In this document: positions 1,195-27,440 of the stretch, piece by piece
How positions within the stretch are numbered: the stretch's first letter is position 1
Layout of the letters: each line of letters opens with the position of its first letter
The notes under the pieces: generated by a model
The model's database searches: none
The model's input: only the letters and a program-made list of their open reading frames with translations
Told to the model about the DNA's origin: nothing
Source of the DNA: Buxus sempervirens
Taxonomy: Eukaryota; Streptophyta; Magnoliopsida; Buxales; Buxaceae
Reading direction: 5' to 3'
Assembly: GCA_947561395.2 (NCBI GenBank)
Contig: OX387192.1
Span: forward strand, 5,456,001-5,520,000
Length of the DNA: 64,000 nt
Translations under genes and position numbers: made by a program

Positions 1195-1334
1195 TAACCG
1201 GCTACTCAGGCCGGTTAATAACAACCCTGTTCATATCCGGTATATATTTCCGGATAAAAAGGCATATGCGTGAATCCGGTTATGGTAACCGGATACAATA
1301 AGGCATATTATTATCCGGAATGTTATACCGGATA
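1195..1334. repeat. Four-copy palindrome array (leader), 39-bp period
   Basis: Four 23-bp interrupted palindromes start at 1195, 1234, 1273 and 1312, exactly 39 bp apart. Each has the form TATCCGG-N9-CCGGATA, with TAACCGG arms in the first copy and an AATCCGG left arm in the third. Spacers of 16 bp differ in sequence. The same architecture recurs at 12984-13122 and 17994-18133. It probably serves as a protein-binding platform (inference). Confidence 0.85.
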
Positions 1335-1639
1335 CGTTCAAAAATGCACAAATTGGCTTTTCAGCCCAAGTTTTCAGAATAAAATGCCTAAAACACTGTG
1401 GATAATCCTTAGGCACCCCGAAAAGAACATAAGAAATGTTCCCAAAAATACAAAAAAAAGAAAAGAAAGAAAAACAAAAAAAGAATAAAATAAAATATTC
1501 TTTCAGGATTTAACCTAAGTTTGAAAATCAAAGAGGAAACCAAGGAGTCATATTTTTTGACACCAACTCAACTCAAACATGTGTCAGTCAAACTCTGGAA
1601 CTTGAAAACTGAGAAAATTCAGCAAATTTGAAGAAGAAA

Positions 1640-2700
1640 AAAAAACCTTTGGTTGGGTATTTTTATCAATCAAATCAAAAAAAAAAATGAAAACCTCGGT
1701 TGGTTATTTTTATCAATCAAATCAAAAAAAAGTGGGACACTTGGAAGCCCTAGAATATTCCAAGAAAACCTTGGTTGGTTATTTTTATCAATCAAATCAA
1801 AAAAAAATGAAAACCTCGGTTGGTTATTTTTATCAATCAAATCAAAAAAAAATGGGACACTTGGAAGCCCTAGAATATTCCATGAAAACCTTGGTTGGTT
1901 ATTTTTATAAAAAAAAATGAAAACCTTTGATTGGTTATTTTTATCAATCAAATCAAAACATTTGTGGGATACTTGGATAGAGTAGTCCAAGACACCTTTG
2001 GTTGGTTATTTTTATCAATCAAATCAAAACATTTGTGGGATACTTGGAAGCCCTAGAATATTCCAAGACACCTTTGATTGGTTATTTTTATCAATCAAAT
2101 CAAAACATTTGTGGGATACTTGGATATAGTAGTCCAAGACACCTTTGGTTGGTTATTTTTATCAATCAAATCAAAACATTTGTGGGATACTTGGAAGCCC
2201 TAGAATATTCCAAGACACCTTTGATTGGTTATTTTTATCAATCAAATCAAAACATTTGTGGGATACTTGGATAGAGTAGTCCAAGACACCTTTGGTTGGT
2301 TATTTTTATCAATCAAATCAAAACATTTGTGGGATACTTGGAAGCCCTAGAATATTCCAAGACACCTTTGATTGGTTATTTTTATCAATCAAATCAAAAC
2401 ATTTGGGGGATACTTGGATAGAGTAGTCCAAGACACCTTTGGTTGGTTATTTTTATCAATCAAATCAAAACATTTGTGGGATACTTGGATAGAATATTCC
2501 AAGATACCTTTGGTTGGTTATTTTTATCAATCAAATCAAAAAAAAATGAAAACCTTGGTTGGTTATTTTTATCAATCAAATCAAAAAAATTGGGACCCTT
2601 GGAAGCCCTAGAATATTCCATGAAAACCTTGGTTGGTTATTTTTATCAATCAAATAAAAAAAAAATTGGGACCCTTGGAAGCCCTAGAATATTCCAACTC
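1640..2700. repeat. Minisatellite of hairpin-forming units upstream of gag
   Basis: About 16 copies of a core that reads TTGGTTATTTTTATCAATC followed by AAATCAAAA are spaced 45-75 bp apart. Linkers are of two types: one contains GAAGCCCTAGAATATTCCA, the other GATACTTGGATAGAGTAGTCC. Where the unit begins TTGATTGG it can pair with the following ATCAATCAA to form a short hairpin. The array stays open in several frames, which explains the small ORFs here. It is leader repeat, not coding sequence. Confidence 0.9.
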
Positions 2701-2859
2701 AAAACAAAAAAAACAAAAAACAAAAAATTTTTTCTGGCTGGTGTTCACCTAACCTACTGGTTTACATATATAGGGGTGTGACTCAAGTTAAGTGGAAGCT
2801 AACATGTTCTATTCATTTTTTTCCCTCAGGTACATTCAACCCAGGTACATTTACACTTA

Positions 2860-5800
2860 TTGGCAATCATTGCTCCCGTGACCAGATCCAAAGCAAGAAC
2901 AATGAATACTGAAGAGAACCAAGCCCAAGCTACCGTCCCTGCTCAGGACTTTACTCAACTGCAGGAGCAAGTGGCCGGTCTGGCCAAAATGCTGGGGGAC
3001 CTACTGGCGGCTCAGGCCCAACAGGCCCAAGCCCCGAACCAGGCATCTACTTCCCATCAGGCACCACCACCTCAGGCCTACATTCCGCCTCCGGTTCAGC
3101 CCATGCCTGAGCCCATTTCTGAACCAGTCCCTGAACCCATTCTGATCAGGGAAAATATGGCGGAGTCTGAGAAAGAGCTGGAGAAAGAAAAGGCCCGAGA
3201 TGAGATGGAAAAGAAAATGCTGCTGAGGATAGAAAGAATCCAGGCAGAGCTGAAAGAGGTGAAGGGGGGAGGCAGCCATGCAGGCACCACCTTCGAGGAC
3301 CTGTGCATGTACCCGGACGTCTGTCTACCGGCTAAGTTCAGGTGCCCGGATTTTGACAAGTTTGATGGCACGGGCTGCCCATTAAGCCATCTGAAACTAT
3401 ACTGCGGGGCCCTGTGCCAGTTTGGCCGGGACGATGGAATACTAATCCAGCTCTTCCAGAGGAGTCTGACCGGGTCAGCCCTTCGGTGGTTCGCTACAGT
3501 GGACCATGGAAGGATCAAGAGGTGGAAGGACCTAGCAGACGCTTTCTTGGACCAATACAAGTTCAACTCTGAGATCGTGCCGGACCGGTACGACATGATG
3601 AGGATGACCAAGGGCAAAGATGAGCCAGTACGGCAGTACGCCAAGAGATGGAGAGAGGCCGCCTCCCAGGTCAGGCCATCTATGCAAGAGCCGGAGATGA
3701 TCTCCACATTTATGGGCACACTGGGGCAGCCCTTTTACAACCATCTGGTGGGCCAGATCACCACCAACTTTGCAGCCCTGGTACAGGTAGCGGACCGGAT
3801 CGAGGAAGGGGTCAGGTCAGGACGGCTGATAGACTACTCTACTCTGACTGGGCAGTCTGATTCCTCGGCCTCCATGGCCCAAAAGAAAGGGGCTGGGTTT
3901 AAAAAGACAGGGGCCCGAAAAGAAGGGGAGGTGAACCTAGTCCAGGCTCCTCCAGCCAAGAAGCCACTGCACGTGAACATCTCGGCACCCCAACAGGCCC
4001 AGCAGGCCCAGCAGTCGTACCAGACCCCGCTGAATGTCAACTTCCCTCCCTCTGTGCCAGCTAACACAAGGAGGACTTTTTCTAAGGAGGAGCGGGATGC
4101 CTGGTTCGCAGCAAGAAAGAACCGGGTTTTCACCCCTCTACCCATATCTCTGTCCCAACTACTGCCAACCCTGCTGAAAGGGGAATACTTGACTCTGAAG
4201 GAGCCTAACCCGAATGCCACCAGGGGAAGAAATTTTGACACATCGGTCACCTGTGATTTCCACATGGGTGCACCAGGGCATTCTACTGATAACTGCTGGG
4301 TGCTGAAGCATGCGGTCCAGGACCTGTTGGACCAGAAGGCCTTGGTATTCAACACTGCTGCACCGGCCCCGTCCGGGAATGATATTGGGCAGAACCCTCT
4401 GCCGTACCACAATGGGGCAGGCCCATCCAACTCCATCACGGCCATATCCACCACCAGAAGGGCCTTTGACCCATCACAGCTGATAGCCCCTATGGGGACC
4501 ACAGTCCAGGTCCGATTTTTCCCAGAGGAGGAAGAGGAGGAGATCAACATGGTTTCCCAAAAAAATAATAATCTTGCTGCTGAGGACATAAGTTCCTCTC
4601 TAAACCGGGTCTCTTCACTCATGGCCCAGATGAATACTGCAAGACCCCCATTGGTCTTCAATTGCAGTCCACCCACTTATTCCCCATCCAAGCCGTCTAA
4701 GGCTCCACTGGTCATCAATCTTGACCCCACCACTGCTTCCATCACTTCTTCTGTCCCCACAAAATCCAAACTTCAACCCCTGGTTGTAAATGTGCAACCA
4801 GCCCAAACTATCCCTAAACCGGCCCATACATCCCGGTCCAAACTCCAGCCACTAGTGGTTGACATCCCTAAATTAGCCTATTCAGAGGCCGCTGTACCAT
4901 GGAACTACAGCGAGGGAATCACGGCTACGGTTCCAATGGTCAGGAACCAGAACCAGGAGGAGGTGAACCTCATGACGAGGTCGGGGAGATGTGCAGGGGG
5001 TGAAGAGAAAGAAAAAGAGACAGAAGTGGAGAAAGAAGAAAAAGAAAATGAAGAAAAAAGAAAACAAAAAGGAAAAAATAAAGTGGGAGAAGACAACCCC
5101 CAGGGTGCAGAAAATGAGGCAGCAGACCTCATAAAAATAATAAAGAAAAGTGAATTCAATCTTGTGGATCAGCTGCACAAGGTCCCGGCCCAGATTTCAA
5201 TACTGGGCCTTTTGCTGAATTCTGAAAAGCATAGGGATGCATTGTTAAGGGTGCTACAGAGTGCACATGTATCCCAGACCATTGATCCCGACCAGCTTGG
5301 TAAAATGGTTGGTCAAATCTTGTCACATAATGTGATAAGTTTCTCAGAGGGTGAGATCAGCCCAGGTGGGTGTTATCATGTGGACCCTTTGCACATCACT
5401 GTGCTTTGTAAGGGCTGCATGGTTGCACGGGTTTTAATTGACAACGGGTCAGCGTTAAACGTTTGCCCGTTAATCACTTTTACCAAGCTGGGTCTGGACC
5501 AGTCAAGGATCAAAAGAAATGGGCGGATAGTGAGGGCTTTTGATAGCTCCAAGACCCACTCCCTAGGGGAGATTGAACTGCCGGTCACAATTGGGCCGAA
5601 TATCTTTAACATCACATTTGAGGTGATGGATATACCCGCAGCATTCAATCTGCTCCTAGGAAGGCCGTGGATACATTCGGCTAGGGCAATACCATCCACG
5701 CTCCACCAGAGGGTGAAATATATAAGAGGGCAAAGGGTGATAACAGTCCTAGCCGAAAACTTGGTGCCGCCCATTGTGTCACCTGATGTACCCCTAATCA

Positions 5801-6609
5801 ATGTGGACCTAACTGTCGACAAGATTGCATTCCACTCATTCCAATTTGAGGCGGTCAATTACATACCTGGGGGGTGTGAGAAAAAGAAGGAAAAGGGGAC
5901 CACTGCAGAAAATATGGTCAAGAAAGTGATGGAAAAATACCACTTTCACCCAGGGAAAGGCCTGGGGATCAATCTGCAGGGGATGGTGGAGCCAATCATG
6001 GCTAAGAAACTAGTCCCAAGGGTAGGGTTGGGCTTCAAGCCCAGAGGCTGGAGAAGAATGAAACACGAAGAAGGGGAGAGCAGAAGCAAAGGAAAACTCC
6101 CTCATTTAAGGGAAAGTTTCCCTAAACCCTCCTATATAATCCAAATTTCCCCTCCCATGGACCAGTCCAAGCCTCCATACCGAAACATTAACCCATTCCA
6201 AAAGCCTTTTGTTTCGGCCCTACAACCCTATAACCCATCTCCAATACTGGGAGCCGTGGATGGGCCTGGACCACAGCCCGAGCAGCAGGTGGACTTTTCT
6301 GAAGATGTTGGTGCATTCTTCGCCATGATTGAAGGCGAAAAGACAGGGGCAGACATGGAACTGCCATTTATTGACTGGGCCGCAGTAAAGGTTCCAGACA
6401 AGGTCATCTCTGGATTGGGCCCCGTAGCAGAAAAGGGCAGTACCCACCCGGTGATGATGGCATCGGATTCTGGGCTTGAGGAGCAGGCTTTCCCTATTTC
6501 CCCTGCTCCCCAAAATTTTGTACTGAACAATTGGGAGGAAACTCCCCTTACCTTTGAAGCAGCGTTAGTTCGGCAAACTGACGCGGCTTCCAAAAAAAAA
6601 CTCCAATAG
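2860..6609 (+). CDS. Retrotransposon Gag and aspartic protease region (fossil part)
   Basis: The product starts with a coiled, Q/P-rich segment. A retrotransposon Gag domain follows (about residues 148-330, with the ALRWF and DLADAFLDQYKF landmarks). A CDFHMGAPGHSTDNCW knuckle-like motif sits where a CCHC finger is expected. Further on are a basic, E/K-rich linker and a retropepsin-like domain with VLIDNGSALNVCP (active-site D near residue 861) and LLGRPWIH. After the protease lies a G-patch-like stretch (about nt 5905-6010: FHPGKGLGINLQG and GLGFKPRG). In Ogre elements the protease-to-RT passage is known to use splicing, and this region abuts the RT region in another frame. The ATG shortly after the last leader repeat was taken as the start. 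Confidence 0.9.
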   Translation: MAIIAPVTRSKARTMNTEENQAQATVPAQDFTQLQEQVAGLAKMLGDLLAAQAQQAQAPNQASTSHQAPPPQAYIPPPVQPMPEPISEPVPEPILIRENMAESEKELEKEKARDEMEKKMLLRIERIQAELKEVKGGGSHAGTTFEDLCMYPDVCLPAKFRCPDFDKFDGTGCPLSHLKLYCGALCQFGRDDGILIQLFQRSLTGSALRWFATVDHGRIKRWKDLADAFLDQYKFNSEIVPDRYDMMRMTKGKDEPVRQYAKRWREAASQVRPSMQEPEMISTFMGTLGQPFYNHLVGQITTNFAALVQVADRIEEGVRSGRLIDYSTLTGQSDSSASMAQKKGAGFKKTGARKEGEVNLVQAPPAKKPLHVNISAPQQAQQAQQSYQTPLNVNFPPSVPANTRRTFSKEERDAWFAARKNRVFTPLPISLSQLLPTLLKGEYLTLKEPNPNATRGRNFDTSVTCDFHMGAPGHSTDNCWVLKHAVQDLLDQKALVFNTAAPAPSGNDIGQNPLPYHNGAGPSNSITAISTTRRAFDPSQLIAPMGTTVQVRFFPEEEEEEINMVSQKNNNLAAEDISSSLNRVSSLMAQMNTARPPLVFNCSPPTYSPSKPSKAPLVINLDPTTASITSSVPTKSKLQPLVVNVQPAQTIPKPAHTSRSKLQPLVVDIPKLAYSEAAVPWNYSEGITATVPMVRNQNQEEVNLMTRSGRCAGGEEKEKETEVEKEEKENEEKRKQKGKNKVGEDNPQGAENEAADLIKIIKKSEFNLVDQLHKVPAQISILGLLLNSEKHRDALLRVLQSAHVSQTIDPDQLGKMVGQILSHNVISFSEGEISPGGCYHVDPLHITVLCKGCMVARVLIDNGSALNVCPLITFTKLGLDQSRIKRNGRIVRAFDSSKTHSLGEIELPVTIGPNIFNITFEVMDIPAAFNLLLGRPWIHSARAIPSTLHQRVKYIRGQRVITVLAENLVPPIVSPDVPLINVDLTVDKIAFHSFQFEAVNYIPGGCEKKKEKGTTAENMVKKVMEKYHFHPGKGLGINLQGMVEPIMAKKLVPRVGLGFKPRGWRRMKHEEGESRSKGKLPHLRESFPKPSYIIQISPPMDQSKPPYRNINPFQKPFVSALQPYNPSPILGAVDGPGPQPEQQVDFSEDVGAFFAMIEGEKTGADMELPFIDWAAVKVPDKVISGLGPVAEKGSTHPVMMASDSGLEEQAFPISPAPQNFVLNNWEETPLTFEAALVRQTDAASKKKLQ

Positions 6610-9130
6610 TGGATTGCCATTTCCCTGAAGGTTCTAATGGGCCTTCGTCTTCAGGGGAATTATGTTTAGAAGGCCCACAAAAAAATCAAAAAGATTTTTC
6701 TATTTTTTCTAGAAAATTTAATTTTTTCAAAAAGGTCCAAACCACTTATGAACCATATAATCAAACCGAATTGGACCAGGTTGAATATGACTTCGACCTT
6801 GAGCTCGACTTTGATCTCATGGGGGTCGAAGAAGAGACCGAGGTCGAAGAAGAAGTCGTTCCAAAAGAAATTGAATACCAATTGGAACGTCATGAAAAGG
6901 GGGTCCAACCTAATATTGAGGAGACCATATCCATAAACCTTGGGACCAAAGAGGACCCAAAAATTGTAAAAATCGGGTCATGCTTGTCTGATGTGCAGAA
7001 AAACGAAATGTCACAATTCTTGGCAGATTACAAGGATGTGTTCGCTTGGTCGTATCGGGACATGCCGGGGTTGGACACGGACATGGTGGTGCATAAGTTG
7101 CCAATTTTACCAGGGGTTAAGCCGATTAAGCAGAAGCTGAGAAGATTGAAGCCGGAATGGACCTTGAAGGTTAAGGATGAAGTGGTCAAACAGTTCCAAG
7201 CTGGATTTTTGGCAGTCTCTACGTACCCGGAGTGGCTCGCAAACATAGTGCCAGTACCAAAGAAGGACGGGAAAGTCCGAATGTGTGTGGACTATAGAGA
7301 CTTGAACAGGGCAAGCCCAAAGGACGATTTTCCGCTTCCACACATCGACATTCTGGTCGATAATACTGCGGTACATAGCCTGTTCTCTTTCATGGATGGT
7401 TTCTCAGGATATAATCAGATCAAGATGGCTAAGGAGGATCAAGAGAAAACAGCATTTATCACACCTTGGGGCACATTCCACTATACAGTCATGCCATTCG
7501 GACTCAAGAATGCCGGGGCAACATATCAGCGGGCAATGACTGCACTATTCCATGACATGATCCACAAGGAGATGGAGGTCTATGTGGACGATATGATTGC
7601 CAAATCATGCAAAGAGGAGGACCACTTGATCAATCTGAAGAAAGTGTTTGATCGTCTCAGGAAGTACAGTTTACGGCTTAACCCGGCTAAGTGCGTCTTT
7701 GGGGCTACATCAGGGAAATTACTGGGGTTTATAGTGAGCCGAAGAGGAATTGAAATTGACCCGGCTAAAGCCAAGGCCATAATTGAAATGCCAGCACCCA
7801 GAACTGAGAAAGAGGTCAGGGGCTTTCTTGGAAGGATTCAATACATAAGCCGGTTCATAGCACAGCTCACTGCTATCTGTGAACCAATTTTCAAACTTTT
7901 GAGGAAAGATAACCCGACGGTCTGGAATGAGGACTGCCAGCAGGCATTTGACACAATAAAGAGGTATTTGCTGAACCCGCCGGTACTAGTGCCACCAACT
8001 CCAGGAAGACCACTGATCCTGTACTTGTCAGTGTTGGAAACGTCGATGGGATGTGTCTTGGGGCAGCATGATGAGACTGGTAGAAAAGAAAGGGCAATTT
8101 ACTATCTGAGTAAAAAATTCACAGAACATGAAGCTAAGTACTCATCATTGGAGAAGACTTGCTGCGCTCTAGTGTGGGCCACTCAGAGGCTAAGACATTA
8201 TTTCCTTAGTCACTCCACACTATTGATATCCCGGATGGACCCACTGAAGTATTTATTTGAGAAACCGGCCTTGACTGGCAGAACGGCTAAGTGGCAACTG
8301 CTACTGTCCGAATTTGATCTCACATACATCACCCAGAAGGCAATCAAGGGTCAAGCCATAGCTGATCACCTGGCTGCACATCCTTTGCCAGAATATCAAC
8401 CCTTGAAGACCAACTTCCCTGATGAGGCAATTCTGTACACTGAAGAGGAGGACAATGAGAGTTCTTGGCAGATGTTCTTCGATGGGGCCGCCAATATGAA
8501 TGGGAACGGAATAGGGGCAGTCTTGGTCAAACCGGATGGTTCTCACATCCCGATTGCAGTAAAGCTGAGATTCCAGTGCACCAATAACATAGCAGAATAT
8601 GAAGCATGCATAATTGGATTGCAAGCAGCCATGGATCATGGAGTAGAGGAACTTGACGTATACGGGGATTCGAGTCTTATCATCTTCCAAACAACTGGTG
8701 AGTGGAAAACCAAGGATCACAAATTGATCCCCTATCACCAGTATTTGGAAGAAATAAGCACAAATTTCACTCGAATTTCCTTCAACTATATGCCAAGGGC
8801 CAAGAATCAGTTTGCAGACGCTCTAGCAACCTTGGCTTCAATGGTCAGCATATCAGAAGGAGTAGACATCAAACCGCTGGAAATTGAGGTCCGAGATGAA
8901 CCGGCTTACTGTCTCGTTCTAGAGGGAGCACCAGAAGAAGAAACACCATGGTTTCAAGATATCAAGAATTTCTTGAACAATCGGAGTCTGCCAGAAAATG
9001 CCACTGCTACTGAGAAGAGGACAATACAGAGATTGGCTGGTCAATTTCTGCTAAGTGGTGGACATGTGTACAAGAGGTCACATAACGACATTCTGCTAAG
9101 ATGTGTTGCCAAGGCTGAATCGGAAAGGCT
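6609..9130 (+). CDS. Reverse transcriptase, RNase H and second RNase H (fossil part)
   Basis: The Ty3-type RT core is seen as VPVPKKDGKVRMCVDYRDLN, FMDGFSGYNQI, FGLKNAGATYQ and the catalytic YVDDM (nt about 7581-7595). The first RNase H follows (YLSVLETSMGCVL, YYLSKKFTEHEAKYS, about nt 8000-8380). A second, archaeal-like RNase H comes next: MFFDGAANMNGNGIGAVLV, AEYEACIIGLQAA, VYGDSSLII and ADALATLAS supply the D-E-D-D residues (about nt 8465-8840). This dual RNase H order marks the plant Tat lineage. The N-terminal 150 residues are acidic (EVEEEVVPKEIE) and unassigned. Confidence 0.93.
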
Positions 9131-9139
9131 GATTGAGAC

Positions 9140-10196
9140 TGTACATGGAGGAGTCTGTGGGCCCCATATGAGTGGACACATGCTGGCTAAGAAGATCCTG
9201 AGGCTGGGATACTACTGGACAACCATGGAGCACGATTGCTGTGTACATGTCAGGAGGTGCCACCAATGTCAGATATATGCAGATAATAAGCATGCACCCC
9301 CAGGTGAGCTACACAACATGACATCACCCTGACCCTTCTCTATGTGGGGCATAGATGTCATCGGCATGATCTCCCCTAAGGCATCGAACGGACACAGATT
9401 CATCCTGGTGGCGATTGACTACTTCACTAAGTGGGTGGAAGCAGCATCATATGCAAATATCACAAGCAACCATGTGATCAAATTTGTGAAGCACAATATC
9501 ATTTGTCGCTATGGACTGCCAAATGCCATAGTATCAGACAATGCTTCAAATATTAAGAACAAGGACATGAAGAAAATGTGTGAGCAGTTTCAGATCACCC
9601 ACCATAAGTCAGCTCCGTACAGGCCAAAGATGAATGGGGCAGTGGAAGCAGCCAACAAGAATATAAAGAAAATCATTCAGAAGATGGTAGTAAGCTACAC
9701 AGATTGGCATGAAATGCTACCACTTGCTCTACATGCCTACAGAACTTCGATCCGAACTTCAACTGGGGCAACCCCATACTCCCTAGTCTATGGGATGGAA
9801 GCAGTCTTGCCCATGGAAGTAGAGATCCCCTCACTCCGAGTGCTCATGGAAGCAGAACTAGAAGAAGCCGAATGGGTCCAGTCAAGACATGATCAACTCA
9901 ACCTGATAGAAGAAAAGCGGTTGAAAGCGCTTTGCCATGGACAGTTGTACCAGAAGAGAATGGCCCGGGCCTACAATAAGAAAGTGAGGCCCAGAACTTT
10001 CCAAGAAGGAAACTTAGTGCTAAAGAAAATTCTACCATTTTTGGAAGACCCTCGTGGTAAGTTCAAGCCCAATTGGGAAGGCCCATATGTCGTCAAGAAA
10101 GTCCTATCAGGGGGAGCACTCATCTTAGCAGAAATGGATGGGGCAGATTTTCCTGAGCCCATTAACTCTGATGCGGTAAAAAGGTATTTTCCTTGA
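9140..10196 (+). CDS. Retrotransposon integrase region (fossil part)
   Basis: An HHCC zinc-binding part is visible first (HGGVCGPHMSGH and then RRCHQCQIYA). The DDE catalytic core follows with GIDVIG (first D), IVSDNAS (second D) and GAVEAANKNIKK (E). A C-terminal region contains RPRTFQEGNLVLKK and FKPNWEGPYVVKK, a GPY-like module. The core ends just before AT-rich non-coding DNA. Order and spacing match Ty3/Gypsy Tat elements. There is no chromodomain after the GPY-like module, which argues against a chromovirus. Confidence 0.92.
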
Positions 10197-11136
10197 GTGA
10201 ATATTTCTAGGAAAGGATCCGAGGCCATTTTTCTTTATTTCCTTCAAAAATTTTAATCCCTAGTCTAGCCAAGTTGAGCCGGTTCGTTTCTTTGATAAAC
10301 CCAAACCGGATTTACAGTCAAATTGGGGCAAAAACAAATTAGGGCAAAGTAAGGAAAGAAAAAGAAAAAAGAGAGGAGAAGCAATGGAAATGGCAAATGA
10401 AAGCCAAGTGTGAAAAAAGATGCAAAAAATGCAATTTAGGGAAAAATGGGTAAATTTATCATGACTGTAAATCCGGTTAACCTATTTCCACACTTGAAAA
10501 TTTTTTGGGCCTTTAATACCCTTTCTTTCATAAACTGAGCCTAGCCTTTATTTCGTCCTATTGATAAGCCCTCGGTGATCTTAGTTTGTTCATTCAAATA
10601 TCAGAGTAAGATGGGTAATGACGGAATTCAGAAGCCGGCCCTAGTGAAAACCGTAACTGGCGCTAGGGGCAATATTGGCAAAAGGGCAAAAAGAAAAAAT
10701 AAGAGAAATGAAAGAAAATCAGAGGTTGAGTTGATCATGGAAATCTGAGATTGAAGCAAAATCGGCATGAGCAGAATGGGGCAGTTTTGGCAGTTGGGGA
10801 TGACTCTAAAGGTCCTCAGATGGACGGTTCTGATCCCTCAGTATTTTCTGGACTACCCTTTTCATTATTTAACCTGGTTCTAATTCCTTTAATCATAGGT
10901 GATTAAGTGCATGGACCAAATTTCAAAAAAAATACTAAAAAAATATAAAAAGGAAAAAATTATACTTTGGCCAGTGATGAGAAATCAAATACTTTTCATA
11001 AAACCTTTGTTTTTACAAGCATCTGAGCATTCTGAGGCCAATAATATAAAAACTTTATTTTGAATTAAATCCTTTGTATTTCCACTATTGGAGTTCAATT
11101 TTGTGCAAAGGTAAGAAAAATGTGCAGGAAATAAAG
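10197..11136. other. Non-coding spacer between integrase and antisense gene B
   Basis: This spacer is AT-rich with no supported open frame. It holds the 3' flank of the sense genes and, on the other strand, the 3' flank of the antisense DUF7745-like gene, so the two transcription units converge here. CCGGTT and AACCGG words occur near 10279-10312 and 10472-10480, but not as a regular array. Confidence 0.6.
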
Positions 11137-12851
11137 CTAATCCCTATCTCCTAGCCGCTCCTCAAGCTCCCGAATCCGAGCTGCCTGAGCTGCAATAACT
11201 CCAGAAGCCCCCTCTGCAGCGGGATCACTAAGGAAGGAAATGACCTCATCTGAAAGGGCCTGCTTGATCCTCATACTCCTAAGGCTGGCCAAAGTAGCCT
11301 GGTACTTCTGCCGGATCATACGGACCTCGAAGCAACGGGCCTGCCTCTGCTCCTCCAGCTTCTCTTCCATGGCAATACGGCGTGAGATCTGCTCCTCAAG
11401 CTGCCTCTCCAGATATGTGCCCTGTATCCTGAGCTCCTGGGCCTCCCGTACCCATATCTGCTGAAGCCGCTTATGAGAAGCCCGCTCAGACTCTAGAATG
11501 TCCTCATAAGTAGGAGCCAAGACTACAGGAGGATCTTCGGGTACTGGGGCCTGAGTCTGTATCTATTCCTTGATCCAGAAGAGATAATCCTTTACATGGG
11601 CTTCTGAGAAGACTGGACCATGCATAAAGCGTACATAGGACCACTCCTTCATCAACCAGGCATTCAGCTTCATAGAAAGGGGCCCAAGACGATCCTCATA
11701 TCCACATGGGATGATAATCCCCTAGGTCGCTCGGAACTGACGAAGGACCCGCAGAGGAAGATACAGCACTGCATGCTTCAGGCCCGCCAGAATCAAAAAG
11801 TTGCGGTCTCGGAAGCTAATCACTGTCTCCGCATTAGGCTGATAAGTACCAGGCCATCTGACCTGGTCATCCTGAAGCGAGCCCAAGAAAGTGAACCAGC
11901 CCTGTTTGCCCCCTGGAATATCGGGGCACCCCCTGTTGCTCATCAAGAGAGGGACTTTCAGACTCGGGAAGAAGTGTCGATTGATTTCGTCGATCTGGCT
12001 CAAATGATCAAGTAGCCAAAGCTGCAAAGGAAGGAAGATATGTCAGCACATTGTATAAAAAAAAAAAAAGAAAAAAAAAAGTGGAAAAGGCAAAAAGAAA
12101 GCCAAAAAGCAAGAAAAAATAAACATAAAAATATTTTTTTCACCTGCAGGATCTGGGCACATGCTAGGAAGCGTTTCGACTTCCTATTGTAGCAGTCGGT
12201 TAAGGCCTGATACATCTCAGCTAAAATCATAGGGGCCAACCTCTCTCTCTCCCTAACCTGGCATATCACTGAGATCAAGGCCAAGTCCACCTCGTCATCC
12301 TCCCGTGGGAAAAGCAACTGGTTGACCACTATCAGGGTCAACGCATTGAATCGGGCCTCCTTATCTTCCCCCCTCAAAAGCTTCTCAGTCAAAAAAGCCT
12401 TAGATAGGGTCAAAAGGGTGTCAGAATCCCCCAAGTCCTTCTTCCCTATGCCCAAAAAAGTAGAAGCTTCCTTCTTGTAACTGGGCCTAAGAGGTGGATT
12501 CACCACCTTCTCATCAAACCTCAGGCCCAGGGTAGTTTCCACCTCCTCAATAGTTGGGGTCATCTCATGGGTCCCAAAACGGAACAAGTTGAGATCAGGA
12601 ACCCAATGACCAATCATGGCCTCTATAATCTCCCACTTGAAGGGAACCTTGGGAATGAGCAGGGTATGGCCTAGGTTGGTAGTACCCCATCTCCTCTCCT
12701 CATCTAGGGTCATAGAGTTAACCCACCTTGTGTAAAAGGAATCCGCAGGGTTGTACCTAGTGAGATTTGGGGGTTTTGATCTAAAAGGCTGTTTTGCAGG
12801 GGAGGCAGTGTGGACAGACAATAATGGGGCAGAAGATGATCCAGATTCCAT
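11137..12851 (-). CDS. Antisense gene B: DUF7745-like protein with coiled-coil C-terminus
   Basis: This gene runs opposite to the retrotransposon. Exon 1 (12851-12144, 236 codons) has FRFGTHEMTPTIEEVETTLGL, LTLIVVNQLLFPREDDEVDLA and FLACAQILQ. Exon 2 (12021-11137) opens with LWLLDHL, carries SFRDRNFLILAGL, and ends in a heptad-rich helix (ESERASHKRLQQI to RIRELEERL). The LLFP and CAQLLQLWLL-type landmarks are those of the plant DUF7745 family, a relative of PMD proteins. I infer the phase-0 intron 12143-12022 from a CAG/GTGAA donor and a TTTGCAG acceptor after a T-rich tract. The start at 12851 is chosen because a TATA box lies near 12965, so the more upstream ATG there is unlikely to be used. 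The molecular role is unknown; PMD proteins act in silencing and genome stability. About two breaks lie in exon 2. Confidence 0.72.
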
Positions 12852-12962
12852 TGGATTTGACGGGAGCAAGCTAGAACTCAAGAGAAGGAAGAAAAAGGCA
12901 AAAAAGGGGGTTTCTAAACTCAAAAACTCGTAAAAAAAATGCTCAAATCCCGAGGCAGGTTG

Positions 12963-12971
12963 CATTTATAG
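12963..12971 (-). promoter_or_regulatory. TATA box of antisense gene B
   Basis: The minus strand reads GCTATAAATGC here, 112 bp upstream of the chosen start codon and 13 bp from the nearest palindrome of the 12984-13122 array. A start site about 30 bp downstream (near 12935) would give an 80-nt leader. Confidence 0.6.
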
Positions 12972-12983
12972 CATCTTTTAACA

Positions 12984-13122
12984 TATCCGGTAACTCAGAC
13001 CGGATACAAAGGCTTTGGTAATATCCGGATAAGTATACCGGATACAAAGGATTCCATGAATATCCGGTATGACATACCGGATACAAAGACCAATCAATGT
13101 ATCCGGTATGTCAGACCGGATA
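12984..13122. repeat. Four-copy palindrome array upstream of antisense gene B
   Basis: Four 23-bp palindromes, TATCCGG-N9-CCGGATA, start at 12984, 13022, 13061 and 13100. Every copy has intact outer arms, and after most of them comes CAAAG. The array sits directly upstream of the antisense TATA box, where activator sites would be expected. Confidence 0.9.
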
Positions 13123-13342
13123 CCGAGAAAAATGCAAAAAAAGAGCTAAGGATGAAAAAATCCGAATTTTTTACCTGTTTTACCTACTTACATGTCATAA
13201 TTGCATAAAATTGAGAACAAAAGATGTGCAAGACATGATAGAATGAATAAAAAGTTTTTTCATATATATCTGGAAGTTGTGTACAGGGATGATGATATAA
13301 ATACATGAAAATGAAAAAATCCTAATCTACTCCTATGCAGGA
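13123..13342. other. Spacer between antisense genes A and B
   Basis: A short AT-rich spacer lies between the upstream array of gene B and the stop codon of gene A. It should hold the 3' end of gene A on the minus strand. I see no open frame. Confidence 0.5.
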
Positions 13343-16010
13343 TCATCCCCTGCGCCCTCGGCCGCGTCCACCTCTACGGCCTCGCCCCCAAAGTCCTCGA
13401 CCTCTAGAGTAGGCAAGGATCCGCTCGGCTGCATGGCGAGGATGCCGACCTACCACCTGCTGAAGATGATACTCCAAGCAATAATCCTCGAGATCTGGGG
13501 GAGGAGCAGGAGTAGAATCTGGGGAAGAAGCCTCGGGCTCAGTAGCAACCGGCCCAACTGGGCCCTCATCCAAAACATCCTCTGCTCCCGCAGCTCCAGA
13601 AGGCCCAGCATCAGCAGCAGAGGGGCCGGGATCAGAAGTAGCTGAGTCCACAGAAAAGAGAAAAATCAGAAGACTCAAATATAAGGAAGAATAAAAGAGG
13701 AAAATTAAAAGAAGATCATACCAGGAATGTCTGCAGAAGGAGCAAGAGGATCCGGCTCATCAAGACCAGCCGCTGGGGCATCCTCGGGATCAGCAGCCCG
13801 AGCCGGAGATGGGTCAGGAATCAGGAAATCATGCTCAAAGAAGGCGTCCTGATCAGGGACCGGGCCCTGCACAAGTCAAACAAGCATATCAGAATAGCAG
13901 AAACAAGAAAATGAAAGAAAAGAAAATATAAGAAGACCAGATACCTGTCTAGCCTGGAGCTCAGCAACTAAGGCCTCCAGCTCCCTGATCCGGGCATCCC
14001 GCTGGGCCACGACCGCATCGTGCTCCGCGATCATATCATCGATCGCAGCCCGCTGGCTCTCGAACCGGTCCCTGATGGTGTTCAGCTCGTGTACCTGTCA
14101 ACAAAAACCGAAGAGGATCAGAAATGCATACAGAAAGGCAGATAAAAACAGGAAGAGTACAAGACTTACAGTGTCGTCATGGATCCGGATACGAATCCCG
14201 CCGATCTCAGTCACCCCGGCACGAGTGGGTCGATCCATCAAGCATCCAATAGATACCCTCTGGAACCACTCGTCATAATCTCCGGCTACTGTGAGCCCCT
14301 CTGCATCCAGGAAGTGATCGAACTGATCAACATCAAAGCCAGGAAGGAGTGTGTCGGGACCCACAGGAGGAGGAGGGACGGGGATGCGAAGTGCGCCAGT
14401 GTGCTGGAAGTACAGGCGCTCTCCCAAGTACATCACCCTACCAAGCCTCCCAAGGAAGCACTGGTAGGGCTGACGTCGTCGATCTCTATCGAAGGCGTCC
14501 TGTACCGCCATCTCACGGGCCACTCCGACGTCCACGTCATCAAATCGGGACAGGAGGAGCTGCAAAAAAGGAAAAATAATCAGGTACAGTCAAGATACAG
14601 GAAAAGAAATAAAAAGGAAAAAGGATAAAGGGTTTACATCAGGTCGGCGGGCACGGTCCAAGTGCACCCGGGCAGTGCGAGGCTGGCTCCTATCAGCATC
14701 TCAAACCTGGGCCGACCATCGCAGGGCCACAGGGAAATCCGCAACCTCAGGAACCGGAGAGGGGCGAAAGAAGGTCATATAGGTGTACATGAACACCTGG
14801 CAAAAGGAAAATCATTCAAGAAAAGATAAAGCCTAATGAATTAAGCCAGACAGATGAATGCAATACCTGTAGAATCTGCCAGAAAAACCGGCTGCTAACT
14901 CCATCGCCTCTCGGGGATGCCAGACCTCGAACTGCACGGCACAACCCGGCCAAGATGGTCCCATAAATGAGCCGACCCCATGCTAGCTGGCGGGTCTGAT
15001 GGAGATCTCTCAAAGCGTCCAGGAAAAGTGGGCTGACGCCGGTCGTATCCTCCGAGAAAAAGCAGCTCCCAAGCATCAGCAGGAATACGTGACGGAAGAT
15101 AGTAACAAAAGCAGCATCATCCACAGCCACAGTCCTGTGTCTCCCCTCAAAATGTCGAGCCAGACTCTCCCGCAGCCAGCTAATGGAGAGCCGGCCGCTC
15201 CGCCCATCCCAAGCAGTAGGTGGCAGGGCCTGATATCCCAGGAGAAGTCCCATATCCTCCGCAGAAGGCCGCTCCAAGACGATGGTCCGCCCCGTCAGAG
15301 GGATGCCAGTAATCATCACAAAATCGGAGGGGTGGATCCCCAGCTCCACGTCCGGCAGGTGGAACGACTGTGTCTCTGGAAAGTATCTCTCCATCATGGC
15401 AAAGATGAGTGGACGGTCGGCTCTGAATGATGGAATGCTGAGGAAGTGATCCAGGTGGCACCTCCCAAACTCCCGCCTGAGCGCTAGAGAAAGTGACTGT
15501 GCCAACTCACTGAATCTCCCCCAGCTGCCTCGCAGATGAGAGGAGTGGTATGGAAGCGGCACGTCTGCCCTGATGCACATGGAGGGGTGGCTATCCAAGC
15601 CACGGAGGAGCTCTGTGTCATGCACAGAGGCTCTCAACTCCTCAGGAACTCCTGCAAGAGCTACAGCAACCCCCTCCGGAGCCGTATCTCTGGCTCTGCC
15701 TCGGCCTCTACCACGGCCTCTCTCGCCCTCAGGGGCCTGATCCTGAACTCTGCCTCTGCCTCTGCCTCGACCCCGAGCCGGTGCAACCACGGGCTAAAAT
15801 TCAAGAGAAAGGTGTGAAGGTTGTGTGGGAAGGAGAATGGAAGAAAGAAAGAAAGCAGAACTTGAAACCTACCTCAGCAGAGCTCTCCCTAGAGCCACCT
15901 AATGGCTCAGACAAGGTGGCACTGGAACTCGCCTCCGTACGAGCCCGCGAAGAGGAGGGCTGATCAGCTGGGTCAGCCTCCTCTCTAACTCGAGAACGAC
16001 TCCTAGCCAT
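13343..16010 (-). CDS. Antisense gene A: plant mobile domain (PMD) protein, seven exons
   Basis: This gene is also antisense to the element. The predicted coding exons, each bounded by GT/AG on the minus strand, are 16010-15873, 15793-14867, 14796-14638, 14559-14170, 14094-13945, 13866-13722 and 13641-13343. Exon 1 starts MARSRSRVREEADPADQPSS. Exon 2 begins with an RG-rich basic run, then the PMD (PF10536 type): FHLPDVELGIHPSDFVMITG, IPLTGRTIV, WLRESLARHF, FLLMLGSCFF and LAWGRLIYGTILAGLCRA. Exon 5 encodes a coiled coil (ELNTIRDRFESQRAAIDD to RIRELEALVAELQ). The last exon is acidic/proline-rich and ends in an RGRGRRG tail. Exon 2 ends in WQILQ, matching the intron site of gene B. MAIN/MAIL1-type host PMD proteins act in nuclear silencing and gene expression; any role for this copy is inference. 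About one break is present. Confidence 0.75.
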
Positions 16011-17250
16011 CTACACAGGGAAGTATTTTATGAATTTCAAAGTTGGCTTTAATTACAGTTCACATCCAATTTTACATGATTATTCTTCAAAATTATCATG
16101 AATTATGAATTTTACTTCACCTGGGTTATCTACAAAGTTGGGAAGTGAGGAATACTTCTGTTTCTAATCCTGAAACATTTCCTAAAGGATTCCTACAGTA
16201 CTTAACATTTCCTGTATATTATGTTTCCAGGATATAAGAAGAGGGAAGGCCCAGGTATCAAAGGCAAGCCGAATTACAGAAATCCAGATTGGACAGTCAA
16301 TTAAGAAAAATTCACAGCAAAATGGAAAGGGGGCAGAAGCTTTTAATCCCGGCAATACTGAAAACATGCAAGTGGCAGATTACCACCAGCATGCAAATCA
16401 GGATTCAAGCCAAAATTTTTTGTAAACATGGTATCATCACTTGCAAGCATCTCAAAGAAATGCAGAAATTCAGAATGGCAAATGGGCAGCCAATCAAGAA
16501 GTTGACAGGCTAAATTGAAAAAAAAGAACAGCATGGCATTTGCATTTCAAAAGTAGTCTGAGGCATGGGAAGTCAGAATTCATCACCAATCAAAAACAGA
16601 AAAATCCCAAATCAGCAATTCAACATCCAAAAAGCATGCAAGCAGCAGCTCTATCAACAGTCGACCCAAGGTCTTGAAACCATCCAATAAACAATGCAGC
16701 AAATTGCAGGATAAAAGAAAAAAAAAAAACAGCCTATCCAAAATTAGAGCATGGCAATGGCATGGATCAGCAACTACAAATTTCGGCTTGAACTCGGCAA
16801 TGAATAGGAACAAATTTGCCATTCAAATTTTCGGCAAGACCAGTGGGGTGATGAGCAATGGTTTACCAATGAACTAAATTCCACCAACAGTCAAATAAAA
16901 AAGATCATGTGGAATTCGGCAATCAAGATAAACAGTAAATCTTTCGTTGGAAGCTGCCATGCCACAGTTACTGTTTGATTAAAGAAGAAAGAAAAAAAAA
17001 ACCTGTCTGCAAGAAGAGGAGTCGGACTGATTGACTGGAACTCGGGTGGAACAGTCGAAAATCAATCACCAGGAAGCTAGGGCTCGGCCACCACAGCAAA
17101 TGAACAAGGTGTATTCGATCCTCGCCGGAGCCAATGCCAGTCGCCGGAGCTGTCGGAGATGATCGGAGAAGGAAAGGGATCGTCGGTCGTCGAAGAAGGA
17201 AAGAGGAGGGTCCGGTCTGAGTTATCGGAGACTGAAGAAAAGAAACGAAA
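16011..17250 (-). other. Likely 5' leader and leader intron of antisense gene A
   Basis: On the minus strand a CCTGTGTAG acceptor sits exactly before the gene A start codon. A GCAGACAG/GTTTTTT donor lies at 17003/17002, so a leader intron of about 990 bp is likely. The segment 17003-17250 on the minus strand has the C/T- and CCGG-rich look of a plant 5' leader. The intron itself is AT-rich and has no supported ORF. Confidence 0.5.
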
Positions 17251-17285
17251 AGTCGCGGTCGCGCGCGACTTAAGTAAACATGCGG

Positions 17286-17347
17286 GATCCAGATACACAG
17301 GCCGGATACCCGCAGACCCTTTATTATCCGGATACCCTTACCGGATA
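17286..17347. repeat. Palindrome pair upstream of antisense gene A
   Basis: One clean TATCCGG-N9-CCGGATA palindrome lies at 17325-17347. A copy with a decayed left arm lies at 17286-17308, again 39 bp away. They are just upstream of the inferred start of the antisense gene A transcript and next to a CGCGCGCGAC stretch. Confidence 0.7.
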
Positions 17348-17495
17348 CCAAAGAAAAAAAATAGAAAAAAGAAGAAAAAAATAGAAAAGAGAAAAAAAAA
17401 GAGGGAAAAATAGGAAAAAGAAGAAAAGAAAAAAGAAAAGAAAAAAGGAAAGAAAAAAAAAAGAAAGAAAAAAAAAGAAAAGAAAAAAAAGAGCA
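17348..17495. repeat. Long polypurine (A/G) stretch
   Basis: About 150 bp on the + strand consists almost only of A and G (runs of AAAAAAGAAAAG). It lies before the pre-LTR direct repeat. It is simple-sequence DNA and not the priming polypurine tract, which is at 17890-17902. Confidence 0.85.
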
Positions 17496-17509
17496 AAATT
17501 GTGCTACAA

Positions 17510-17758
17510 CTTACTATTTTCTCAAAAATCCTATTCTGGTCTCGAAATCCACCTCACAGCCACGAGAGCTCTGTGGAATTTGGGACAACTTTGGGAAATG
17601 TGCCTGGTCAAAAGGATGATATCCACTCAATTTTCAACTTGGTTTGATAAAAAATCAGTTTTTCAAAAAATCCTATTTTTGGGCTTAAAATCCCCTTCAC
17701 AGCCACAAAGGGCTCAATGGAATTTAAGAACTCTTGGAGAGATGCCCCCCTTAAAGTG
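17510..17758. repeat. Two diverged direct repeats before the 3' LTR
   Basis: The segments 17510-17614 and 17655-17758 share TCAAAAATCCTATT-like, AAATCC, TTCACAGCCAC and CAATGGAATTT-like words in the same order, about 146 bp apart. They are non-coding 3' internal sequence of the element. Confidence 0.65.
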
Positions 17759-17889
17759 AGGGCTTTTTGGCAAATCTCCACTCAAAAATGGTTTTCTACA
17801 GAAATTGAATTGAACCGAGCAAATCATGCTCAAGGGAATGCAATTTGGGCTTGTCTACTCTTTGCAGCTTACTGCTTCGCAGCTCCCAC

Positions 17890-17902
17890 AAAGAGGGGCA
17901 GT
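17890..17902 (+). promoter_or_regulatory. Polypurine tract (plus-strand priming site)
   Basis: AAAGAGGGGCAG ends one base before the TG that opens the 3' LTR. Its position and purine content are as expected for plus-strand primer formation in an LTR element, and it fixes both the LTR start and the + orientation. Confidence 0.85.
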
Positions 17903-17993
17903 TGTAGACACCCCAAATTGCACAAACAATCATCAAAAATCATTATCTCCTGGAAAGCCAGCACAGAATTTGAAGAAAATAAACTTTTATCTG

Positions 17994-18133
17994 TATCCGG
18001 ATACTCAATCCGGATACAAATACCCTTTCCCGTATCCGGATACTCATACCGGATACATGTGAGCCTTAGCGTATCCGGTACCATGTACCGGATACCTTAA
18101 GGCCCTTTGTTATCCGGTCTGATATACCGGATA
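17994..18133. repeat. Four-copy palindrome array in the LTR
   Basis: Four 23-bp palindromes start at 17994, 18033, 18072 and 18111, with an exact 39-bp period. All have TATCCGG and CCGGATA outer arms (the first has ATCCGG internally as well). They end about 158 bp upstream of the LTR TATA box, in U3. Confidence 0.92.
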
Positions 18134-18290
18134 CCTTAAGTTTGCTCAAAATTAGGGTTTTCCGAGAGCTTTTCACTTTTACCATCATGTCCCTCATTAA
18201 ATGAGGGGAAATCGCGGAAATGACCTTAGGGTTTAGGTTGGAGGGGTTCTAGACATTAATTTGTGTCTACCAATGACCTTAGCCCTTGCC

Positions 18291-18298
18291 TATAAATA
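18291..18298 (+). promoter_or_regulatory. LTR TATA box
   Basis: CCTATAAATAGG lies in U3, with a matching CTATAAATAAAGG in the related solo LTR. RNA of the element probably starts about 30 bp downstream, near the CACACAACTC stretch. Confidence 0.75.
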
Positions 18299-20175
18299 GG
18301 AGCCTCCTCCTTGAGCAAAGGACACACAACTCTTGTTTTGAATTCTCGCAAAGAAGAACTCCAAGAGAAGAAGAAAACCGCTGTGGAATCGCCTCCAGCA
18401 CTCAGGTAAGCCTCAACTTTTCTTTTTATTTTCTGTCTTTACATTCCTAGATCTAGATCTCTTCTTCTACCTTTCTGTAGTGTAAAGCCTGGTTTGCATG
18501 TGTGGAAATCCTTCCCCGGCTCAAAGTATCTCAAGACTCCCCTAGCCGTAAAACGTGAAGGCGGATCTAGGAGAAACGAGACTGGGGATTGACCCTAGTG
18601 CTAGAACCTATGTAGCATAAGGCCTTTTTGATTGATTGTAAACCGTTCCATATTCAAAGTACCCTTGATTATCTTAAAGAGAACAGAGGGAAACGATAAT
18701 GGAACGGAACCCTAGGCTATGCTAGAACCTATTTTATTGAATCTATATGCATGTGTATGGATCTTGCTAGGTTTTTTTCACTTTTGCACACATATCACTA
18801 TTTTGGCGGGATAGGCTCATATTTGGGGTTTATTGCATTTATTGTGATAAATCTCAAATAAATGGCCTCAATCAATTCTGGAATGCCTTTCGGATGATTT
18901 TAAAGTATTTGTGTTCATCTTGCACGAATTTCATTTTTGTCAATTTTCGGACTTGGTTTTACTCAAAAATGGCTTAGCTTGACAGCACCTGTACCTTTAC
19001 TTCGGACGCCCATAACTTCATCATCCGGATGAATTTTGGGGTGATTCCAGAACCATGGGAAAGGTGAGGCTGTCTAGTTTATGTCCACCAAATTTCATGA
19101 ATTTCTATCTAGCCGATTTTTGACACCTCTCTGTCGAAGTTGAGTGGACAGTTCAGGTCCAAGTACAGAACTTGTCACTTCGACGGACCGCCATGTGTTC
19201 GTTTTAAGTCCGATTCGAGTGGTTTTTATTTCTGAGTACTCCTTTATGAGTCTATTTTCAAATCCAGTTGGTTTCATAATTTTTGGATCCCATTTGAATT
19301 ATTGGTAGCCGATTTACTCAGAACTGCTCATTTGCACTTTTCTGGGTAAATCTGTGATCTTCGGGGCCTGTTCGGGAGACCACCCAAGGCACACCCGAAA
19401 GGATTTTTGTATGAGGCTAGTTTCTGTTGAAAGATGGCCATACAGACTTCAATCACACCAAATTTTACGGATTTCTATGTAGTGGATTTTTCTAGACAAT
19501 TTTCCAAAGTTGCCCACTTATCACTTTTAAAAATCCCCAACAGCAACTTCAAAGGAGCATAACTCCTAGATTGTTCATCGGAATGAAGTGAAATTTTGCA
19601 TGAAACTCTTATTTACCTTAATCTTTCAAATGGATTTGGTTTGGTTCAATTTAGAATTGGATTTGAATGATTTTAAGGCAAATGACATACTTTTTACCAA
19701 ATTTCCCGGATTTGATTTAACTTGGTTTTGAGCAACTTGTGCTTTGATTTCCACCTTTTTAATGTTCCAGAAATGATATTGACATAAAATGGGAACCCAA
19801 AATTCATTTGGATTCTCATGTGAAGATATCATACATTTGACCTTTTTCAAGGTTTTTCATGATTTTTAGCAAGCTTTCTTACTTTGTTTTTAGCATGAGC
19901 ATACACTTGGCAACCACTTCGTGTGGATGAATGGGGGTGCCTAACACCTTCCCCCGTTCATAATCTAATCCCCTTACCCATCTCTGGATTTGATTTTCAA
20001 GTAGGGTTATTTTTATCCTAGAATGTTTCTTTTGGCTATTTTTGCTTATTTTTAAACTTTTGGTGCCCATTCTCACCCCAAAATCATGAATGGTGGCGAC
20101 TCTCCCAATTTTTGCGTTGAGCCCGTGTGTTGACGGAGGGACGATCACTCCGGTGATTTTTTCCCATGTCTCACA

Positions 20176-26029: not shown

Positions 26030-27016
26030 TAGGTCGAACCCGAATAATACCATGATTTGGAGGCTTGTTAGTAGTGGAAATGTAACAGACCTTGCTGTAC
26101 ATGGGTCCGACTGTTTGGGTCCTACTAGGTTCAGAGACCCAGGCTCTATTCCTTTAGTGGTCAATCAATTCAATGGAGTCCAGGGGGTAGAGGTAGATTA
26201 TAGTCACATGGATGAACTACAGGAAGGTGGCAAAGAGGTTCTTCCTCATTTGGCATCTCCAAGTGCTTCTTCTATTTCTCAAACCGCTTCCTGTGGTGCT
26301 ACAGTGGAGAATGGAGACTATCCTTCTTTAGTGAGAAATCCTTCAGAGGACCTGGTGTTGGAGTATGAGGTTGCCGAAGTTTCTGTAAGTGGTTGCCTAA
26401 ACAGGGAGAGTCTTATACAAGAGGATGTAGCTGAAGCTATGAACGGAATTTGTCCATTAATTCCTAACTTGGATCCTCTTGTCTTTGTCGGAGTATCAAT
26501 TGGAACTCAAGTGGGGAAGTTAGAGTCCGAAATTCAGGAAGAAGATGGGACAAAATCAAGTGTATTTTATTAGGAGGATGTAGACACCCCAAAATTGCAC
26601 GTTTTTTGATAAATCTTGAAGGAGAGAAATATTTTATTGGAATTTTCAATTCTTAGCATTGGGTTTGAGATCCTTAACCCATTTGAATCCAAAACCACAA
26701 AGGAAAAAGCCCAAATTCAATCTTTTGCGCAAAGTCAAACTTTTCCAGTTGAACTTTGTTGACTTTTGACCCCAAAAAAATGAAATATTTTTTTAAGGTA
26801 AGATTTCAAGATAACTTTTCCCGGTAATCAGGTTTTTAGCAATGTTATTGTATAAATGAATTTTTTGAGCCTTTAAATCTTGACAAATACCTTAGTATTA
26901 ACATGTTGAATCTTTTTACAAGACCTTAAAAATCGGAATTTAGCCTTGAACTGGAAAGTTGACTTTTTATTCACTTGGAATTTGGGTTTTGAACTATTTT
27001 TAATGGATTCAAATTT

Positions 27017-27116
27017 GGGGGGGGGGGGGGTTTGCTTATTTACATGTAATATCTTAAGTAAATGGAGATTAAAAAATACGAGGACATTTACTTAAATGAT
27101 ATTACATGTAAATAAG
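27017..27116. repeat. G14 run and ~31-bp inverted repeat in the solo LTR
   Basis: Fourteen G lie at 27017-27030. Arms 27034-27064 (GCTTATTTACATGTAATATC...) and 27085-27116 (its near-perfect reverse complement) enclose a loop of about 20 bp. The arms differ only by about one base change and an inserted base. A stable hairpin could form in U3 of this LTR. Confidence 0.8.
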
Positions 27117-27181
27117 TATTGCCTGTGCAGGTAAGGGTCAAGGCTGTGCATAATTTGTGCAGACAGGCCATTTTGGTCTTG

Positions 27182-27260
27182 TCCGCATATAGTATGCGGT
27201 TTGGGCAAAACCGCATAATATATGCGAATACGCACAAATTTGCGCAATTTCGCAAATACT
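27182..27260. repeat. CCGCATA/TATGCGG palindromes in the solo LTR
   Basis: CCGCATATAGTATGCGG (27182-27198) is a palindrome. It is followed by ACCGCATAATATATGCG and a GCGCAATTTCGC stretch. They end about 175 bp before the TATA box (27434), the same place as the TATCCGG array in the 17903-20175 LTR, but with another core sequence. Confidence 0.65.
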
Positions 27261-27433
27261 CGGTTTCTGAGCCATATTTACCACTCCTACCTCTCTCTAG
27301 GAGACTCAGTTTCCCCTTTTGTACCCTCTGTAATTCATAGATTTACTCCAACTCATGTTTTAAAACTGAGTTGGAAGAATCTAGAACCAAATTTTGGCAT
27401 ACCCTTGTGACCTCCCATACCCTTGGCTTTGTC

Positions 27434-27440
27434 TATAAAT
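27434..27440 (+). promoter_or_regulatory. TATA box of the Tat-group solo LTR
   Basis: TATAAAT in the context TTGTCTATAAATAAAGGATC matches the TATA position in the full element's LTR. Confidence 0.65.

Follow-up and report, generated by a model that had tools for sequence, protein, structure and literature searches.

Arrays of a fixed-geometry palindrome at the LTR and antisense promoter of Tat-type retrotransposons in Buxus sempervirens as probable operators for a dimeric factor

Introduction

For VANC and the motif arrays of the Arabidopsis VANDAL transposons, both the factor and its effect on methylation have been demonstrated (available sections of PMC5735166 and PMC10398659), and two further transposon proteins, TnpA of maize Spm and MURA of MuDR, are linked to demethylation of their own elements in the same sections of PMC10398659. 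Here we analyse a 64,000-nucleotide stretch of the Buxus sempervirens genome (contig OX387192.1, positions 5,456,001 to 5,520,000; hereinafter designated the window) containing a Tat-type long terminal repeat (LTR) retrotransposon in which arrays of a 23-bp palindrome (hereinafter designated the dyad) stand at several places. The pattern of conservation in these arrays suggests that they probably serve, at the LTR and at an antisense promoter, as DNA-level operators bound by a dimeric factor that acts in trans.

As far as the cited sections describe VANDAL, the two systems are alike in that short motifs are tandemly repeated in non-coding parts of the transposon and differ between related families, and in a specific trans-acting factor, demonstrated for VANDAL and proposed here. 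VANDAL elements are DNA transposons (MULE), whereas the element in the window carries the gag, reverse transcriptase (RT) and integrase of an LTR retrotransposon, together with a dyad site of rigid gap and spacing. Spm TnpA and MuDR MURA belong to transposase-type systems, such a protein being a candidate here. In HTLV-1, repeated U3 sites for a trans-acting factor occur together with antisense gene expression. An antisense promoter in the HTLV-1 3′ LTR is described in the available text of PMC7264820; HTLV-1 is an animal retrovirus, and its sites and proteins are unrelated to the window element.

Grande, RIRE2 and Retand share antisense accessory genes with the window element, and the function of such genes in plant LTR retrotransposons is called unknown in the available portions of PMC7264820 and PMC11963269. 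According to the same portions, Grande gene23 has its own promoter and tandem repeats lie in that region; a TRP28 domain stands where the window element has plant mobile domains (PMD), and a palindrome shared by LTR and antisense promoter is not described there. The PMD proteins MAIN and MAIL1 are tied to the promoter activity of DOWN-motif genes and to transposon silencing (PMC7156037); they are host proteins, and direct DOWN binding is not demonstrated in the available part of that paper. A literature search, outside which lay subscription papers, figures and supplements, listed no account of operators of this kind for Tat elements, and a text search for CCGGATA gave nothing relevant among the matches listed.

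Dyad arrays and their fixed geometry

The dyad, TATCCGG-N9-CCGGATA, consists of two 7-bp arms and a 9-bp middle, with a 16-bp spacer between units. Allowing up to two mismatches, 14 units occur in the window, all at the coordinates given in an earlier note made from the sequence (100 shuffles: mean 0.04, largest 2). Four units at 39 bp form an array in the 5′ untranslated region (5′UTR; 1195–1334, plus strand; units at 1195, 1234, 1273 and 1312), and four more form the promoter array of antisense gene B (12984–13122, minus strand; 12984, 13022, 13061 and 13100), 13 bp from the gene-B TATA box (12965–12970, minus strand). A two-unit array lies upstream of antisense gene A (17286–17347, minus strand), and the U3 array of the 3′ LTR (17994–18133, plus strand; 17994, 18033, 18072 and 18111) precedes the LTR TATA box (18291–18296, plus strand). 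The U3 array of the 5′ LTR is the same with one base changed.

The arms are exact in 11 of the 14 units, the exceptions being unit 1273 with one mismatch and units 17286 and 1195 with two each, which in unit 1195 are symmetric (TAACCGG..CCGGTTA). Pairwise identity among the 14 units is 95% for the arms and 40% for the middles, and 35% for the spacers as counted on nine units, which bears out the earlier observation that outer arms are kept while middles and spacers vary. The middle of unit 1 is alike in all four window arrays, indicating that the arrays share ancestry.

Patterns were counted in the window's own genome (676 Mb), with the reversed pattern as control. The exact dyad occurs 28,399 times (control 5), whereas identical arms with gaps of 0–8 bp occur 39 times (control 5) and with gaps of 10–20 bp 54 times (control 11). 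The latter range was counted because gaps of 10–38 bp gave a misleading 2,397, the first listed places pairing an arm with a half-site copy made by the middle and ATA/TAT. The outward pair formed by neighbouring dyads, CCGGATA-N16-TATCCGG, accounts for 17,900 (control 0) of the 18,374 outward pairs found at all spacings from N0 to N21 together (control 92). Both the 9-bp gap and the 16-bp spacing are fixed. The two-unit pattern was found 0 times in viral contigs and 0 times in prokaryote contigs.

Recurrence in two Tat-type families

The earlier note had placed the arrays within a single retrotransposon, a restriction that does not hold. When gene-B loci were selected by protein similarity alone, blind to the motif (20 taken from 136 scored of 7,916 candidates; about 340 bp upstream read), the array was present in 20/20, with four units in 18 and three in two, and a TATA box stood 12–13 bp from it in every locus. 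Among 16 genome regions fetched around listed dyad sites (fetched regions bear L-numbers), the LTR, 5′UTR, gene-B and gene-A arrays are found again in equivalent positions; the 5′UTR array is present in 7/7 copies with the 5′UTR in view (the window, L005, L007, L009, L011, L013 and L015) and the two-unit gene-A array in 6/6 fetched copies in view.

A genome-wide sample was drawn through altered-gap sites, 12 of the 39 with gaps of 0–8 and 20 of the 54 with gaps of 10–20. All 12 of the former lie in LTRs of two Tat-type LTR-retrotransposon families and 18 of the latter clearly belong to the same two families (L080 is weak, L084 ambiguous), giving 30/32 in all. L071 lies upstream of gene A and all other assigned sites lie in LTRs.

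Family 1 includes the window element. Family 2 is the element in L020–L023, with amino-acid identities to the window element of 68.5% in the RT part, 71% in integrase and 40–41% in gag parts; no match longer than 80 bases was found between its LTR and the window LTR. The family-2 LTR contains five dyads, the last ending 12 bp before the TATA box, and four further dyads about 0.9 kb on. PMD queries gave no match between integrase and 3′ LTR in two family-2 elements, nor in a relative with a 76%-identical LTR (L027, L064). The gene-B promoter and the family-2 LTR have the same layout of dyad, CATTAA-like run and TATA, and the antisense promoter therefore looks like a copied LTR promoter module, from which it would have descended.

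By its domain content, the window element is a Ty3/gypsy retrotransposon of Tat type. Alignment of the LTR pair places its 3′ LTR at 17904–20175 (plus strand) and its 5′ LTR at C15:5453446-5455717, outside the window. The two LTRs differ by 2 mismatches in 2,270 aligned bases and a 5-bp duplication, GGTGC, flanks both ends of the element, indicating a recent insertion. Gag and pol lie on the plus strand, and two antisense genes contain PMD. The order of pol domains is RVT_1 (216–376), RT_RNaseH (465–569), RVT_3 (624–742) and then integrase parts. In the available part of PMC6317226, the Tat clade (Ogre/Retand) is defined by an additional RNase H (aRH) between RNase H and integrase, the place held here by RVT_3, the presumed aRH, and a PMD extra open reading frame (ORF) is present in 57% of Ogre elements, as it is here in antisense genes A and B. 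TGGCGACTCTGCTGGGGAC follows the 5′ LTR, where the Ogre subclade has a tRNA-Arg primer binding site. An antisense TRP28 (PF04195) ORF is given for 97% of clusters of the Retand lineage in the accessible text of PMC11963269; PF04195 was not found in the scanned antisense ORFs, some small ORFs lying outside the scan.

Selection on the arms

Between family-2 subfamilies, compared in 19 pairs (excluding L027/L030, which are nearly identical, and the LTR pair of a single element), 66–70 of 70 arm bases are identical (94–100%), against identities of 0.49–0.69 for middles, 0.60–0.78 for spacers and 0.58–0.79 for flanks. Comparison of the window with seven family-1 regions (L018, L019, L029, L034, L035, L037 and L038) gave 53–56 of 56 arm bases and flank identities of 0.51–0.81.

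The two LTRs of one insertion provide a measure of unselected change. In seven such pairs, the arms changed at 4/462 and the rest at 63/14,692 positions (Fisher P 0.15; for L013/L014, which has 782 mismatches and an interrupted 3′ copy, the first 0.9 kb alone is used). The arms therefore mutate like the rest after insertion; they are not shielded from mutation and are retained in the lineages that replicate, by selection between those lineages and not by low mutation. A standing protection of the arrays from mutation is rejected on the same evidence, and since LTR-pair arms change normally, the lower C-to-T change at arm CpG in 21 gene-B promoters (0.012 versus 0.088 outside) is likewise read as between-lineage selection.

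Changed arms occur in 53 of 193 array units, and in 13 of these both arms are changed, nine times identically. TAACCGG..CCGGTTA is present in 7/7 5′UTR arrays and GATCCGG..CCGGATC in both LTRs of one family-2 element; among the units seen, symmetric double changes are confined to outer arm bases. When 123 unique units are read in both directions, the first middle base is G in 1/246 and the arm is preceded by C in 0/246. The symmetric arm changes and the symmetric avoidance of bases point to a protein dimer on double-stranded DNA. Together with the fixed gap and spacing, they support the earlier suggestion of binding sites for a dimeric protein, and the maintenance of these sites by selection.

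Another palindrome type in related LTRs

An old LTR relic at 26951–28842 of the window matches the family-1 LTR piecewise at about 71% identity. It contains no TATCCGG dyads; its U3 carries a pair of CCGCATA-N3-TATGCGG units with a 28-bp period (27183–27227, plus strand), of which the second deviates at one position, about 0.2 kb before a TATA box at 27434. The earlier note had named related copies without the arrays as evidence that would refute it. Such LTRs exist, this one at 27.0–28.8 kb among them, and they are informative in having another palindrome at the corresponding place. A single base distinguishes the half-site TATCCGG from TATGCGG.

CCGCATA-N3-TATGCGG has 223 exact matches genome-wide (control 0); the alternative reading TATGCGG-N11-CCGCATA has 193 (control 0), some of them from a different long palindrome. 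Eight second-type loci were fetched and six match the relic LTR group (L085–L089 and L091), L090 having no match and L092 a match to a family-2 LTR piece alone. Up to eight units are present in L085, a recently expanded array of this type, and scattered ones alone in L089. The flanks of three second-type LTRs gave no match to family-1, family-2 or PMD protein queries. L087 is 86–89% identical to second-type LTRs up to about position 600, and from position 656 it continues as the family-1 core promoter and downstream LTR, 89.7% identical to the window LTR, a junction that looks like an operator exchange. The start of the relic U3 (27048–27127) is itself 97–99% identical to the U3 start in the LTR slices of L018 and L019, against about 71% for the remainder, so U3 parts seem to have been exchanged.

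Antisense genes

A domain scan found DUF7745 and PMD in the first part of gene B (12003–12860, minus strand) and PMD in the putative main exon of gene A (14868–15793, minus strand). The antisense ORF at 11140–11520, taken as the end of gene B, has a predicted 93-residue helix, modelled from the single sequence. Gene A shows a ratio of nonsynonymous to synonymous divergence (dN/dS) of 0.04–0.09 at dS 0.22–0.52 in six copies, one with a stop. This dS, between the window and L006–L014, is far above the LTR divergence of those copies (about 4–12% for most), and LTRs and internal parts thus seem to have different histories. Homologue searches found none for gene B and a single match for gene A, to a Camellia MAIN-LIKE 1-like protein (E 2.2e-5); a PDB sequence search with gene A found none.

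Family 3, represented by L040 (C14:24506000-24514000), combines a family-1-like LTR (92%) with two antisense PMD genes of another kind, which suggests reshuffling of LTRs and accessory genes. PMD pairs about 3.4 kb apart, as in L040, occur at several places in the genome.

Function of the arrays and nature of the factor

We propose that each dyad would be bound by a dimeric, sequence-specific DNA-binding protein, whose preferences extend beyond the arms by one base outwards and some three bases inwards, and that the usual four dyads at 39 bp, spanning about 140 bp, may act as one platform, perhaps cooperatively. From one platform ahead of the sense LTR TATA box and another immediately before the gene-B TATA box, with further copies in the 5′UTR and upstream of gene A, a trans-acting factor would reach both the element's genome promoter and its accessory-gene promoter, the likeliest effect being activation or relief of silencing. 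That a single factor would bind all these places and coordinate sense and antisense transcription, as the earlier note proposed, is a conjecture.

Several points weigh against this proposal. The copies are related, and unit counts are consequently not independent; in the subfamily comparison, every family-2 LTR apart from L020/L022 had been located through a single unit with exact arms, and the result for that unit is therefore conditioned. The family-1 LTR TATA box stands 157 bp from its array, and none was seen next to the 5′UTR or gene-A arrays in the window, where no promoter is evident; of the three promoters that the earlier note put downstream of arrays, those of the LTR and gene B are supported and that of gene A is not. 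The 39-bp period corresponds to about 3.7 helical turns, not a whole number, and the idea that the sites face one side of the DNA does not follow. Three other PMD loci (L041–L043) have no array within about 2.4 kb upstream.

Two views of the factor's identity, both compatible with an operator function, appear about equally likely. The factor may be a host transcription factor for which the elements have built optimal multi-copy sites, a tentative reading whose chance we put not far below even. LTRs carrying host-factor sites are a known pattern, and the arrays are common to families with and without PMD genes. On the other hand, no host-gene site was present among the 32 sampled, single or degenerate host sites not having been searched for, and the change of palindrome seen in related LTRs would call for a further host factor.

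Alternatively, the factor is possibly, on an analogy with VANC that we hold with some reserve, a PMD protein encoded antisense by the element, which would bind the arrays, relieve silencing or activate, and autoregulate gene B, with PMD-less families using it in trans. The array directly at the gene-B promoter, the strong constraint on gene A, the helix predicted in ORF 11140–11520, which would suit dimerisation, and the operator-type switch expected of a co-evolving factor are in its favour. Against it, family 2 has arrays without a PMD match in the two elements searched, no arrays accompany the promoters of the family-3 PMD genes or of the three other PMD loci, and DNA binding is not an established property of PMD. 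Extended further, Tat/Ogre elements would run their own regulatory circuit, in which the antisense PMD protein binds dyad arrays both in the LTR and at the promoter of its own gene and removes silencing in trans, the swapping of operator cassettes (TATCCGG at 39 bp, TATGCGG at 28 bp) lets related families evade each other or the host, and PMD-less families exploit the factor; as a whole this circuit seems rather unlikely.

That the palindromes act as RNA hairpins in element transcripts is improbable, and we reject it. Shuffled sequences fold far less well than the three four-unit arrays (z −7.1 to −9.1), but any palindrome folds in this way; conservation extends to the arm-core letters themselves and not just to pairing, symmetric double changes being limited to outer arm bases in the units seen; the gene-B array stands upstream of its TATA box; and an Rfam search gave no match. 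Functionless tandem-repeat drift, which the earlier note had named as a refutation, is largely ruled out and the least probable of all: tandem repeats are frequent in related Retand elements (available text of PMC11963269), the arrays share ancestry and the L085 array expanded recently, but arms, gap and spacing stay fixed while middles and spacers diverge, the whole unit not drifting evenly as in a neutral repeat, and the arms mutate normally after insertion.

A selected operator common to LTR and antisense promoter would offer a concrete handle, since one short DNA probe could identify the factor. With an element-encoded factor, LTR retrotransposons would take their place beside VANDAL and Spm as elements that control their own silencing in a sequence-specific way, and operator exchange would be the trace of an arms race; with a host factor, a single regulator would be confronted with tens of thousands of strong sites in one genome.

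Other observations

A separate tandem array of 71/76-bp and 120-bp units, unrelated to the dyads, occupies 1642–2697 of the window in the 5′UTR of the element. A longer palindrome, TATGCGGTTGCTTCGCAACCGCATA, is present at many listed places (for example C1:17334351-17334375) and probably belongs to another repeat family. At C1:8464558-8556539, seven LTR matches in the same orientation recur with a period of about 15.32 kb, an arrangement that looks like tandem whole elements sharing LTRs.

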